Source of the DNA: a virus
Direction: 5' to 3' (one strand)
DNA: 24,051 nucleotides
IMG/VR virus record: IMGVR_UViG_3300000116_000219
Span: 1-24,051 of that record
Positions 1 to 19,413 of this stretch are shown piece by piece (the first letter of the stretch is position 1; every line of letters begins with the position of its first letter). Made by a program: the position numbers and the translations under genes. Under the pieces are notes generated by a model. The model was not told the origin of the DNA. It was given only the letters and a program-made list of their open reading frames with translations, and did no database searches.

Positions 1-631
1 GAATCATCTGTTTATAATCTATTTCACTAGAATATGTAGCATTTTCATTTAATACAGGTGAAACTATGTTAAATACCATTTCTTTATCTTCTTTTGATAA
101 AATATCTGGTAGGTAGGGGGTAAAATATGCTTTTCCTTTTTTAGCTGCTGCTCTAGAATTTCTACCTCTCATACCTTCATCTTGTGTAGTAACAACTTTT
201 AAATCTAAATTATTATACTTTTCAGGATTTTTCTTTAGGGCTTTTGCTCTATTTATTATATCTTTTTCATCATCATCTGCTCCTTCTCTTTTACCTATTA
301 TCCAATAAATAATATCTTGAGGATTATTTTTAGCAAAGCTATAAATATCACCAATAGGCATTTTTGAAGGTTGTATTTTAACTTTAGGTGGTAAATAATT
401 CTGATATATTTCCCAAATTAAAATAGCTTCTGCTTGAGATATACCATTTCTTTCACCACTACCTACTAATATTATTAATTCATCAATTTCAGGGTATTGT
501 TTTAAAGCTTCATCTACTACTTCAAAATGTCCCCCTATAGGTGGTTTAAAACCCCCACCATATAAAGCAACTATTTTATTTTTATTTTCGGGCAATAACC
601 CTTCTAATAATGATTTTGTTAATTTATTCAT
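1..631 (-). CDS. Nucleotidyltransferase (cytidylyltransferase/NadM-like), 3' part beyond the window
   Basis: Open for 210 codons from ATG at 631-629 to the left edge, so the C-terminus is missing. Residues 25-35 read GGGFKPPIGGH. This is the phage form of the GGF-P-(H)xGH nucleotide-binding loop of the HIGH-superfamily nucleotidyltransferases (NMN adenylyltransferase, CoaD, glycerol-3-phosphate cytidylyltransferase). An Ile-rich strand with GSGERNG follows at 52-63, and a basic segment GRNSRAAAKKGK at 156-167 sits where the family has its second phosphate-binding motif (ISxxxxR). These enzymes transfer a nucleotide from NTP to a phosphorylated acceptor; the acceptor here cannot be read from sequence. 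The start overlaps the stop of the upstream kinase gene as TAATG, so the two are probably translationally coupled. The N-terminus carries LLEG (residues 8-11), compatible with a prohead-protease site. Superfamily call strong, substrate unknown. Confidence 0.8.
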   Translation of the reverse strand, partial: MNKLTKSLLEGLLPENKNKIVALYGGGFKPPIGGHFEVVDEALKQYPEIDELIILVGSGERNGISQAEAILIWEIYQNYLPPKVKIQPSKMPIGDIYSFAKNNPQDIIYWIIGKREGADDDEKDIINRAKALKKNPEKYNNLDLKVVTTQDEGMRGRNSRAAAKKGKAYFTPYLPDILSKEDKEMVFNIVSPVLNENATYSSEIDYKQMI

Positions 632-1449
632 TAAGCTAAAAATTGTTTTAATCTCATTTGTGCTTCTTCTTTAGACATAGTGTATTCAATTACATCCTGT
701 AAAAATTCATCACTTAACATATCTTGAATTTCAGCATTTAATTCTGCTTTTTGAATTTTAGATTTTTCTATTTGTGATGGGGTTTTAGGTTTTGTATTTT
801 CTGGTTTAAATGGGTCAAGGTATTTTTTTATAATCTTATCTATATCTTGCATTCTATCATCTAATGTGTTAGCTACTGCTACAAAATTATTTCCAAATAA
901 ATTAGCGTATTTAGGTAAATTATCTGTTACACTTTTCCAAGTACGCATTACAATTGCAGGAGCTAAACTTCTATCTTCCCCTCCTGATTTTGTGTATCTA
1001 TCTTGATTTTGGCTTAGTGAACGTTGTAAATCAGTATACACATATAGCATAAACACTTCATATCCAGCTTCTTCTAATTCATTTTTTAATTTAACAGTAT
1101 TATTAAATGAAGCTGCTGTACCATCTAATATAAATGATTCTTTACCTTCAATAGTAGCAGCTATATCACCTTTAAAATTTTTATTAGCTTGAGCCATTGA
1201 TTTAGCTTGTTGACTTCTTTCTTCAGGTGTAGCATTTTTTAAATCTAATGATACATTAGCTTGTTTTAACATATCAACAAAAATATTATCAATATTCATT
1301 ATTTTTAAACCACCTAAGTCTAAACCTTTTAATATATATCCTTTACCAGCTCCAGGAGCTCCTGCTAAAATTATAGCTTTAGGCGCATCTGTAGCCTCTT
1401 TTAATAGCCTACCTTCTGCTACATATTTTTTATAATTAAAGTCGTCCAT
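631..1449 (-). CDS. P-loop kinase, AAA/zeta-toxin-like, with a capsid-targeting-like N-terminus
   Basis: 272 aa. A Walker A loop GAPGAGKG lies at residues 30-37 (Lys36). It is followed by an acidic NID at 53-54, a second strand FILDGT at 106-111, and a lid-like Arg series (R143, R151, R160). This layout fits small NMP-kinase/zeta-toxin/polynucleotide-kinase-like P-loop enzymes that phosphorylate a small molecule or a nucleic-acid end. The target is not identifiable. The C-terminal third (about 212-272) is Lys/Glu-rich and helical. The first 19 residues (MDDFNYKKYVAEGRLLKEA) resemble the T4 internal-protein capsid-targeting peptide (MKTYQEFIAEA), with possible gp21-type cuts after VAE (E12) and LKE (E18). 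The gene has its own upstream AT element and is coupled by TAATG to the nucleotidyltransferase downstream. Kinase fold fairly sure; capsid targeting is inference. Confidence 0.75.
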   Translation of the reverse strand: MDDFNYKKYVAEGRLLKEATDAPKAIILAGAPGAGKGYILKGLDLGGLKIMNIDNIFVDMLKQANVSLDLKNATPEERSQQAKSMAQANKNFKGDIAATIEGKESFILDGTAASFNNTVKLKNELEEAGYEVFMLYVYTDLQRSLSQNQDRYTKSGGEDRSLAPAIVMRTWKSVTDNLPKYANLFGNNFVAVANTLDDRMQDIDKIIKKYLDPFKPENTKPKTPSQIEKSKIQKAELNAEIQDMLSDEFLQDVIEYTMSKEEAQMRLKQFLA

Positions 1450-1451
1450 AG

Positions 1452-1470
1452 TATTTTGTTATAAATATTA
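1452..1470 (-). promoter_or_regulatory. Conserved AT element, copy 1 (putative phage promoter)
   Basis: On the minus strand this reads TAATATTTATAACAAAATA and ends two bases before the ATG of the kinase gene. Its first three bases are the stop codon of the PD-(D/E)XK nuclease gene. The core ATATTTATAA is identical in three other leaders of this window. It holds a -10-like TATAAC (1463-1458) only 8 nt from the start codon, so a promoter here would give an almost leaderless mRNA. A translation-related or RNA-processing element is the alternative. Confidence 0.45.
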
Positions 1471-2256
1471 TAACTTTCTTTTAGCTGTAGTTTTAAATTC
1501 TGTAAATGTAGGAGAATGTCTAGGAAATTCTAAATCAAATAATTTTTTAACAGTATTAAAAATATCTATATTTTCACCTTGTGTACGTTTTGACTCATGC
1601 ATTTCCCAACCTTTACCTTTTAAACGTTTACCTTCTTTATCTTTACCTCTAGATTTAGATTTTAACCATAATACTCCTACTCTATCTACAGTTTTACCAT
1701 AACATTCTTCATAACATTGAGCATAAATAGCTCCTTGTAAGTCATGAGTTATTTGTAGGTTATTTGATGTTTTAAAATCAATAATCCACATTTCTGTTTT
1801 ACCATCTATTTCTATTTCACATACTAAATCACAAGTACCTGCTACTTTAATTTTATCTGAAAATAAATGTACTTCTGCTTCAACTAATGTAGGATTATAT
1901 TCTTCCCAAAAATCAACAAATTTTAAAAACATTTGCCAAACATCAGGATTATATACAGGTATACCATTGGATAAAAAATTTAATTCTTTACCATTAAGAT
2001 AATCCTCAATCATTTCGTGTACTTGAGTACCTTCTTCAGCTGCTTTTTTAACAATCCAATCAGCACTAAAACCTACTTTCTTTAACCAATCTTGAAAATG
2101 TTTTCCTTTAGGATAACAACTTAAAACATACGTTATTGAAGGATAATATTTACCATTTCTACGATAATATCTTGCATCGGGGAGTGTGATTTGTTTTGAA
2201 TCTTCACTAATTTCTAAAATTCTATTATAAGACTTTTTTATATTTCTTTTTTTCAT
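1468..2256 (-). CDS. PD-(D/E)XK exonuclease, RecB/Cas4-like
   Basis: 262 aa. All core motifs of the RecB-type PD-(D/E)XK nuclease family are visible in order: GTQVHEMIE with H80; acidic strand EAEVH at 126-130; GTCD with D143; IIDFKT with D160 and K162; and QGAIYAQ at 174-180 matching the QxxxY motif. D143, D160 and K162 form the expected metal/catalytic set, so it is likely active. The length suits a single-domain phage exonuclease used in recombination, replication-end processing or host-DNA breakdown. I see no Fe-S cysteine cluster like that of Cas4. The N-terminal 45 residues are basic and the C-terminus is Lys/Arg-rich, compatible with DNA binding. The start overlaps the primase stop by four bases (ATGA), so the two replication-type proteins are probably made together. 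Confidence 0.85.
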   Translation of the reverse strand: MKKRNIKKSYNRILEISEDSKQITLPDARYYRRNGKYYPSITYVLSCYPKGKHFQDWLKKVGFSADWIVKKAAEEGTQVHEMIEDYLNGKELNFLSNGIPVYNPDVWQMFLKFVDFWEEYNPTLVEAEVHLFSDKIKVAGTCDLVCEIEIDGKTEMWIIDFKTSNNLQITHDLQGAIYAQCYEECYGKTVDRVGVLWLKSKSRGKDKEGKRLKGKGWEMHESKRTQGENIDIFNTVKKLFDLEFPRHSPTFTEFKTTAKRKL

Positions 2257-3185
2257 ATTGATTGTAATTTCCTTTCCATTAATTGGTAGGAGGTTAAGGG
2301 GAATGTATTTTGGATTAATGTTGTAAAATCATAAAACCCCATTTCACTAGGATCTTTTTCTTTAAGATCTATTAAATAAACTTCTTTTCCTTCATTTATA
2401 AATTCTTCTGCAAATTTAATTGCTTGTTTCATAGCGTCTGTATCTAATGCTATGTATATTTTTTTAATTGTTGATGTAACTATTTTTTTCCTTAATTCAG
2501 ATTGTATGTTTTTACCTAATAAAGGAATAGCATTGCGTTTTATGGCAATAGCATCAAACATACCTTCACATATAACTAAGGGTAAAGACCAATTAATTAA
2601 ATGTTCATTTGGTATTATATTTCTTGATGCTTCTGGGTTTTTATATTTTATATAAGGATCTTTTTCAAATGACCTTCCTGTAAAATAATTTAAATTACCA
2701 TTTTTATCATAAGAAGGAATAATAACCATTTTAGCATATCTACCATATTCACAATATCCTATATTATATTTTTCAATATCTTTAATAGTTATACCTCTAT
2801 TCTTTAAATAAACCCATGCCTGTCTTCCTATTATATTTTTACTATTATTAATTATAGGGATAAATTCATCTGGTAGTTTTAAATCGTATTTAATTACTTC
2901 TATATCTTTAACTTGATAGCCCGTCTTTACTAATGACTTTAATTCTGAAAAATGTTCGGGTAATGCTTTTACCTTTTTAAATAAAGTATTTAAGTATTTT
3001 CCTTTTTCATTACAAACCCAACAATGCCAAGGATGATATCCTTTTTTATTATCTGTAAAATTAATTTCTAATTTAGGTTTAGAATGATTACATAAGGGAC
3101 AATGAAATGCTCTATTACCCCGAGCAGTCATTTTTCCATCTCCTAATACTCTACTTACTAAGCTTACTAGTAGTTCATTTATCAT
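2253..3185 (-). CDS. DNA primase, DnaG/T4 gp61-like
   Basis: 310 aa, close to the size of T4 gp61 and much shorter than bacterial DnaG. An N-terminal zinc ribbon has CPLC (C29, C32) and CWVC (C55, C58). The primase core has the motif around GRYAKMVIIPSYD (148-160) with YFTGRSF (167-173). The TOPRIM fold follows, with VICEG (E207), ALDTDA (D248, D250) and a third acidic residue in KEKDPSE (D278). It synthesises RNA primers for lagging-strand replication. No helicase-interaction domain is obvious, and no gp41-like helicase lies in the window. It directly precedes, and overlaps by ATGA, the RecB-like nuclease gene. An 18-bp A/T leader without Shine-Dalgarno separates it from the GIY-YIG gene. 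All catalytic residues appear present. Confidence 0.92.
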   Translation of the reverse strand: MINELLVSLVSRVLGDGKMTARGNRAFHCPLCNHSKPKLEINFTDNKKGYHPWHCWVCNEKGKYLNTLFKKVKALPEHFSELKSLVKTGYQVKDIEVIKYDLKLPDEFIPIINNSKNIIGRQAWVYLKNRGITIKDIEKYNIGYCEYGRYAKMVIIPSYDKNGNLNYFTGRSFEKDPYIKYKNPEASRNIIPNEHLINWSLPLVICEGMFDAIAIKRNAIPLLGKNIQSELRKKIVTSTIKKIYIALDTDAMKQAIKFAEEFINEGKEVYLIDLKEKDPSEMGFYDFTTLIQNTFPLTSYQLMERKLQSI

Positions 3186-18653: not shown

Positions 18654-19060
18654 TATTGTATTGCTATATTTATTTCATCTTCTACTCCTATGTTACTAAT
18701 TATATAATTTATAAATAAATTTATTGTATTTCTATCTGGTTGGTTATCAAAATTTATATTTTGTATAGTTATTTCCGGGAATTGTAAGGTAACATTATCT
18801 TTAATTCTTGTTGTTATAGCACTATTAGTTCCATCATTAATTCCTTCCCCTATAAAATCTCTTAAATTTGCACCAAAAAGAGGTCTCATAACTCTTTCAC
18901 CTTTATTAGTTAATAACCAATTAATTAAATTAGTTCTTATTACTTCTTTGGTTGTAAAAGTTGGGTTAAATACAGCTCTTCCTGATAAGGGCAAACTAAA
19001 GCCTAAGGCAGCACTACCACTACTAACTGTTGGAAAAACATTACTTACAATTTGAGCCAT
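18653..19060 (-). CDS. gp25: Baseplate wedge subunit, T4 gp25-like
   Basis: 135 aa, matching T4 gp25 (132 aa). The core motif is NKGERVMRPLFGANLRDFI (52-70), equivalent to the E-x-R-P wedge-core motif shared by gp25 and TssE of type VI secretion systems. Helices and strands follow, ending in LFINYIISNIG. gp25 nucleates sheath polymerisation by handing a beta-strand to the first sheath ring and anchors gp6. Some databases call the family gp25-like lysozyme; the catalytic claim is not supported by structure. It is flanked by TAATG overlaps on both sides (with the 117-aa gene upstream and gp6 downstream), so translation of all three is likely coupled. Together with gp6 it shows that the phage has a contractile tail. 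Confidence 0.93.
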   Translation of the reverse strand: MAQIVSNVFPTVSSGSAALGFSLPLSGRAVFNPTFTTKEVIRTNLINWLLTNKGERVMRPLFGANLRDFIGEGINDGTNSAITTRIKDNVTLQFPEITIQNINFDNQPDRNTINLFINYIISNIGVEDEINIAIQ

Positions 19061-19413
19061 TATTTACTATTCATTAAATTTATTATTTGATCCATACCTA
19101 CATTTCCATCGGGTAATGTACCATTAGCTACATCCATTCCTGGGTTAGGTCTAAAAGTTTGAGCATTATTGGTATTAAATCCTGCTGCTGTTTCACCTAA
19201 AATGTTTTTATAAGCATCTCTTTTTTCTTGAGAAGACATTACAGGGGTAGTGGGTGATGGAGATGTTATAGAAGGATTATAAGACTCCATTACTGGGGTT
19301 TGAGTTACTACTTTTGGTGTTTTTACAGCTTCTAAAAGTATATCTTTTAATTCTTCTTGTATTACTTCTCTAACAGTTTCTTTTAGTACTTTTTTTAATT
19401 CTGTTAATTTCAT
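19060..19413 (-). CDS. Small protein with amphipathic N-terminal helix and disordered Pro/Thr linker
   Basis: 117 aa. Residues 1-34 (MKLTELKKVLKETVREVIQE, then ELKDILLEAVKTPK) form a strongly amphipathic, charged helix of a type I recall at the N-termini of many short marine-phage proteins. Residues 36-62 are Pro/Thr/Ser-rich. The rest is Gly/Asn/Pro-rich (FRPNPGMDVANGTLPDGNVG) with a short terminal helix (MDQIINLMNSK). It contains LKE-T and LLE-A sequences that fit the T4 prohead-protease preference. No enzyme motif is present. The 45-bp gap before it holds copy 3 of the AT element, so it probably heads the gp25-gp6 transcript, and its stop overlaps the gp25 start (TAATG). A chaperone, scaffold or baseplate glue peptide is possible; function unknown. 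Confidence 0.6.
   Translation of the reverse strand: MKLTELKKVLKETVREVIQEELKDILLEAVKTPKVVTQTPVMESYNPSITSPSPTTPVMSSQEKRDAYKNILGETAAGFNTNNAQTFRPNPGMDVANGTLPDGNVGMDQIINLMNSK

Follow-up and report, generated by a model that had tools for sequence, protein, structure and literature searches.

A predicted kinase gene in a 24-kb IMG/VR virus record (24,051 nt, the whole of which we call the window) begins with a peptide resembling the capsid-targeting sequence (CTS) of phage T4 internal proteins, which raises the question of whether this kinase travels in the phage head. Judged by its own genes and by its relatives, the window is a fragment of a T4-like myovirus. An initial annotation, made from the sequence alone, had proposed that the kinase is packed into the head, trimmed, and injected with the DNA. 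Our analysis supports that proposal, with a stronger case than was first made, and we consider it likely (probability about 0.8) that the first 18 residues of the kinase are a capsid-targeting propeptide with the function that such peptides have on T4 internal proteins. That the kinase is packaged, cleaved, and injected is still an inference, as we found no virion proteomics for this lineage; against the propeptide reading, no experiment shows these proteins in the virion or cut. Also weighing against it are the lack of head genes in the window, the imperfect VAE site, the extra length of the long leader, and the shortness of the T4 similarity, all taken up below.

The kinase and its exchangeable leader

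The kinase gene lies at 631-1449 on the minus strand, with its stop codon at 631-633. It is predicted to encode a protein 272 aa long with a zeta-toxin/adenylate-kinase-like P-loop kinase body starting at about residue 22. The N-terminus of the open reading frame is MDDFNYKKYVAEGRLLKEATDAPKAIILAGAPGAGKG, and the 19 residues quoted in the initial annotation are exact. The leader, given as MDDFNYKKYVAEGRLLKEA, comprises M1-E18 (1396-1449, minus strand); it is the long form of leader class A, MDDFNYKKYVAEGRLLKE, and is found exactly in the sequence. It contains two candidate protease sites, after E12 (VAE followed by G) and after E18 (LKE followed by A). Both had been noted before, and they fared differently when set against L/I-x-E, the cleavage consensus of the T4 gp21 protease (PMC9026906). 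The LKE site held, whereas the VAE site is not a strict match, having V in place of L/I; most relatives have LAE at this site. The T4 peptide used in the original comparison, MKTYQEFIAEA, also held, as ipII and ipIII of T4 (NC_000866) both begin with it.

The Pfam Zeta_toxin domain (PF06414) matches residues 20-180 of the kinase with 59.7 bits (cut-off 22.3), so the leader lies outside this domain. The P-loop, GAPGAGKG, is of the adenylate-kinase type and occupies residues 30-37 (1339-1362, minus strand); it is invariant across 35 relatives. In an AlphaFold model of modest quality (mean pLDDT 68.5), residues 1-20 have an average pLDDT of 39-49 and the first strand starts at residue 24.

We took 80 relatives from viral contigs, among which there were 60 distinct kinases. 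The body of these 60 is conserved and begins PKA[IV]ILAGAPGAGKG. Eight carry a long leader, M[DNK][DN]F[DN]xKKY[LVI][AS]EG.LLKE, and the other 52 a short leader of the MISL.QLLKEA type, such as MISLVQLLKEA. On a maximum-likelihood tree built from the bodies alone, the leader changed state about seven times, and at least five of these changes are forced by well-supported branches. When 35 kinases were aligned, the only invariant leader positions were L16 and E18, with residue 17 free to be K, R, S, N, or L. This L16-x-E18 is the gp21 consensus (PMC9026906). Thus, the leader is a modular, interchangeable N-terminal tag and not part of the kinase. The initial annotation named as a refutation a peptide that belongs to the kinase fold in every homologue. 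Leader swapping on a conserved body and the low model confidence of residues 1-20 exclude this, and we rejected the leader as part of the fold on the same grounds.

Leaders on unrelated proteins

The check suggested alongside the original claim, a search of relatives for unrelated proteins that start with this peptide, came out strongly positive. A survey of open reading frames in nine longer relatives and the window showed that near-identical leaders head unrelated small proteins, frequently in tandem. Examples are six consecutive genes in relative G002 (61961-64979), six in G003 (87820-94004), and four in G006 (24614-27347). A degenerate DNA scan of viral contigs returned at least 120 stretches. 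The leader pattern occurs 248 times in the collected loci, and 241 of these occurrences are within six residues of the start methionine. The long leader was found on 206 distinct proteins whose bodies fall into 83 blastp families. Shuffled N-termini gave an expectation of about 0.0 long leaders per genome versus 3-7 copies in each of the three longest relatives; the match exceeds chance. Leader residues F4, K8, Y9, and E12 vary little or not at all, with the constancy of F4 and E12 partly imposed by the search pattern.

There is also a third leader class, C, with the pattern MKEL[YNST]xFRQ[FY]L[TA]EG. Among 100 families carrying a class A, B, or C leader, eight have more than one class: three combine A with B, the kinase among them, and five combine A with C. 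These counts depend on the patterns used, the scan behind them was incomplete, and near-copies are present among the contigs. Overall, leaders with one or two (L/I)-x-E motifs are present on approximately 100 unrelated cargo families in phages that have a gp21-type prohead protease.

The cargo bodies are highly divergent both between and within genomes, as are T4 internal proteins. Nearly all were without a match in the Pfam and PHROGs sets scanned; beyond the kinase, these searches returned only DUF5872 and three weak PHROG hits. One leader-bearing cargo (L132:3495-3878, minus strand) looks NlpC/P60-like by eye, but Pfam gave it no match and PHROGs only a weak one, to a tail protein. Among the leader families are several of acidic and low-complexity or repetitive proteins (for example, L204, L023, and L195). 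Further copies of the leader, or of its second half, EGRLLKEE, lie inside some cargos (L205:4046-5074, L094:5921-6469, and L199), and the protease might cut such fused cargos into pieces. The T4 late promoter (TATAAATA) upstream of leader genes was considered as a sign of late expression; there were few sites and these were not informative.

A possible objection is that the leader is a recombination or translation-start module, that is, 5' DNA that serves gene duplication and shuffling and encodes a peptide with no targeting role. The tandem arrays and the internal leader copies do show recombination at leaders. However, within one locus, leader codons 4-13 differ by 198 synonymous and 118 non-synonymous changes, when random single changes in these codons would be 18% synonymous, and the DNA upstream of the leaders is unrelated between copies. 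The excess of synonymous changes together with the unrelated upstream DNA indicates that the leader peptide itself is under selection, and we rejected the idea that it is mere duplicated 5' DNA. In addition, the three leaders exchange on the same bodies yet retain an L/I-x-E ending, and the second of the two motifs in the long leader is kept in two registers, as described below. We therefore regard the recombination-module explanation as very unlikely.

Putative cleavage motifs, head genes, and the T4 system

An (L/I)-x-E motif ends at residue 12 in 178 of 180 long leaders. A second such motif, which played no part in selecting the proteins, has its last residue at position 17 in 86 leaders and at position 18 in 75, together 161 of the 180. 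The proportion of long leaders with this motif within residues 14-20 is 92%, compared with 1-3% for control windows further into the proteins. A second motif that is kept in two registers while its residues vary is as expected if a protease with an L/I-x-E consensus selects the motif.

Ten residues suffice for the T4 CTS, and amber-suppressor analysis of IPIII showed that residues 4 and 7 target the protein and residues 8 and 10 are needed for processing (PMC9026906). The short leader, at 11 residues, has the length of the T4 CTS and contains L4, L7, L8, and E10; it shares with the CTS the hydrophobic residues 4 and 7. The long leader has two more residues than the CTS before its E, so that F4 aligns and position 7 is shifted. 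As in IPII and IPIII, a short N-terminal peptide, here a putative propeptide with L/I-x-E before the predicted cut, is borne by unrelated small proteins. The systems differ in the sequence of the peptide, in the presence of at least three leader classes replacing each other on one body, in the number of cargo families (a handful in T4 versus about 100 in this lineage), and in the long leader with its two LxE sites. Common descent with the T4 CTS cannot be proved from a likeness over ten residues. The injected ADP-ribosyltransferase Alt of T4 is a packaged enzyme with a short propeptide ending in L/I-x-E (ITE-6, PMC5694885); it is a different enzyme and the kinase leader is longer. Redundant propeptide sites have been described in phiKZ-type phages (PMC9026906). 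The head proteins of phiKZ and SPN3US resemble the present case, as inferred, in having protease-removed N-terminal propeptides with redundant cut sites on injected proteins, but several of those propeptides exceed 100 residues, whereas the leaders here are 10-20 residues long, as in T4.

The window, being a fragment, contains no capsid or prohead-protease gene in its 24 kb. A gp21-type protease (PF03420) is encoded by all six relatives in which the head region is covered, and gp23 (PF07068) by five of those six. Scaffold candidates, identified by position and start, are gp22-like and begin MNRNFL[QKR]EA or MANNDLLKEA. As in T4, an S77 gp21-type protease, a gp22-like scaffold, and gp23 are found in the same phages. 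The N-terminus of the protease in relatives is M..LLIET and that of the major capsid protein (MCP) is MSQLNSLLESANPYKS...TGLLEG...ILEN.

The nearest isolate is Flavobacterium phage vB_FspM_immuto, whose host is Flavobacterium sp. LMO8 and whose MCP is 60% identical. Its leaders are MENFDLKKFLVEN, MENTFDLKKFLVEN, and MADNFNLRSFLTEN, on proteins mostly annotated as hypothetical. Immuto gp069 is a homologue of a leader cargo that has a leader-like start, MENNFDIHKWQAKFLKES, and its gene has the prohead protease gene on one side and that of scaffold candidate gp067 on the other. The host of the window phage is likely a flavobacterium, with near relatives also occurring in Flavobacteriales and Winogradskyella metagenome bins. 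In the literature searched, we found no virion proteomics for immuto or for Pelagibacter phage HTVC008M.

Two alternatives accept the leader as an address. The first holds that it targets proteins to the prohead core, where, as T4 gp67 and gp68 do, they act as core or scaffold parts during maturation or are degraded in it, without being injected. In its favor, the acidic, low-complexity families L204, L023, and L195 could be core components consumed in maturation, which counts against reading all leader proteins as injected cargo; immuto gp069 is placed in the core operon; and gp21 cuts T4 core proteins into fragments (PMC9026906). Against it, the kinase has a whole P-loop enzyme body in which active-site-like residues are invariant, and the cargo bodies vary widely whereas core proteins are conserved. 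We think this alternative unlikely. The second holds that the leader sends proteins elsewhere in the cell or virion, such as to the tail or a replication compartment, through another receptor and protease. There are no direct localization data, and one of the three long-leader genes of G001 (58087) is far from the head genes. Against it, the main leader clusters are co-oriented with the portal gene and lie approximately 5-20 kb upstream of it; the L/I-x-E motif fits the gp21 consensus and is also present in the N-termini of the protease, scaffold, and MCP of the same genomes; and one start pattern is common to the internal proteins of T4 and the kinase of Aeromonas phage 65. This second alternative appears very unlikely.

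Under the propeptide reading that we prefer, the leader would bind the gp22-like scaffold core during head assembly and so bring the kinase into the prohead. The prohead protease would then cut after E18, and possibly after E12, to leave a kinase of roughly 28 kDa with A19 as its first residue, a few residues ahead of the first strand. The freed kinase would stay with the DNA, enter the host at injection, and, ahead of all phage gene expression, phosphorylate a small molecule that is a nucleotide or resembles a nucleotide sugar.

Kinase function and related phages

Foldseek with the modest kinase model ranked PezT/zeta and adenylate kinases first with low TM-scores, and a PDB profile search with the kinase family gave no hits at E 0.01. 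The kinase shares with zeta/PezT and adenylate kinases a P-loop kinase body, a Zeta_toxin match above the Pfam cut-off, and the best Foldseek hits. It differs from zeta/PezT in having an adenylate-kinase-type loop and a putative packaging leader and in lacking an antitoxin gene beside it; its substrate, which in zeta toxin kinases is UDP-N-acetylglucosamine, is unknown. The adjoining genes instead encode an exonuclease, a primase, and a nicotinamide-mononucleotide-adenylyltransferase-like (NMNAT-like) protein. Because there is no adjoining antitoxin gene, the kinase does not look like part of a toxin-antitoxin pair. The upstream neighbors are a PD-(D/E)XK exonuclease (1468-2256, minus strand; phrog_298, 1e-40; PF12705) and a DNA primase (2253-3185, minus strand; phrog_47, 5.7e-48). 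On the other side is a cytidylyltransferase/NMNAT-like gene, MNKLTKSLLEGLLPENKNKIVALYGGGFKPP, which starts at 631 on the minus strand and runs off the window (1-631). The order primase-exonuclease-kinase-NMNAT is the same in relatives such as G003.

The G003 relative of the NMNAT-like protein matches CTP_transf_like (PF01467) with 22.9 bits (cut-off 21). The first 18 residues of the NMNAT-like protein form an optional extension (MNKLTKSLLEG...) containing LLE followed by G. It is present in G003 and G007 and partly in G002, and is absent from G001, G005, G006, and G009. The NMNAT-like protein is a possible second tagged enzyme beside the kinase. Given this adjoining, optionally tagged gene, a role for the kinase in NAD or nucleotide metabolism is a reasonable first guess, inferred on weak evidence. 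In L019 (frame 0, residue 2897), an NMNAT-like protein has joined to it, at about residue 501, a cargo domain that bears a leader elsewhere. The counter-defense function suggested in the initial annotation is only a possible role. Injected phage proteins are the first to meet host defenses; in T4, IPI blocks the GmrSD restriction enzyme and IPIII is needed on E. coli ECOR17 (PMC9391042).

A second kinase lineage is approximately 32% identical to the window-type kinases and about 50% or more identical among its own members. It includes kinases of Methylophilales phage Melnitz and Pelagibacter phage HTVC008M and is found in 80 viral loci. Its members start MKTFAELQEG (Melnitz), MKSYEQILSEG (a metagenomic contig), MKQFKSIIQEG, MKDFKTYLHEG, or MIPFILKEG, and the leaders of this lineage have Y4 and I7. 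In HTVC008M the kinase and a cytidylyltransferase are neighbors, as in the window. Within T4's own family, the kinase homologue of Aeromonas phage 65 starts MKKFSEFIKLEE, which, like the contig leader MKSYEQILSEG, resembles the leader of T4. The pattern M-K-x-[FY]-x-E-F-I matches the kinase gene alone in the phage 65 genome and never in the reversed control. In the T4 genome it matches only ipII, ipIII, and gp61.1, with no match in the reversed control. IpI is not among the T4 matches. T4 gp61.1 (NC_000866 18966-19130, minus strand; locus L350) is a hypothetical protein of 54 aa with a CTS-like start, MKTFKEFIKED.

The kinase of Agrobacterium phage Atu_ph07 follows a YRGM-motif domain in one fused protein that has the leader MKWNDLNEA. 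This fusion, gp053, is the first of ten tandem genes. All ten (gp053-gp062, L344:17485-27508) start with M[KR]WxxLxE and share a YRG[MI] motif of unknown fold. We considered whether the YRGM domain is an Alt-like ADP-ribosyltransferase; a profile comparison with T4 Alt and a PDB search gave nothing, and we do not claim it. Mass spectrometry identified 29 Atu_ph07 virion proteins among CDS 31-76 (PMC6102473); gp053 falls in this range, not necessarily among the 29, if RefSeq numbering follows that of the publication.

The packaging tag itself is known from T4, and its use by T4-like phages for packaging a variety of proteins has already been proposed by reviewers (PMC9026906). The novelty lies in how large the repertoire is, in leaders that replace one another, in the two candidate cut sites of the long leader, and in a kinase cargo common to branches of the T4 superfamily. 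We found no paper describing any of these in the literature searched, which did not cover most subscription journals. A bolder reading, toward which we lean only slightly, is that marine T4-superfamily phages use a general cargo-loading code. The scaffold core and the prohead protease would recognize several different leaders, the approximately 100 cargo families would be exchangeable, and the zeta-like kinase would be an ancient cargo shared from Bacteroidota phages through those of Pelagibacter and Methylophilales to those of Aeromonas. If this is true, many injected effectors of ocean phages could be read from their first 18 residues. Few injected phage proteins are known so far, and with a recognizable tag, dozens of proteins of abundant marine phages that are now hypothetical become predicted injected cargo. 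The predicted head contents are testable with one isolate, and the interchangeable packaging signals may be of use for loading proteins into phage heads.

The window also encodes a protein of 117 aa (19060-19413, minus strand) beside a gp25-like baseplate gene. It has a helical-looking start, MKLTELKKVLKETVREVIQEELKDILLEA, with several L/I-x-E motifs, and is conserved in relatives.
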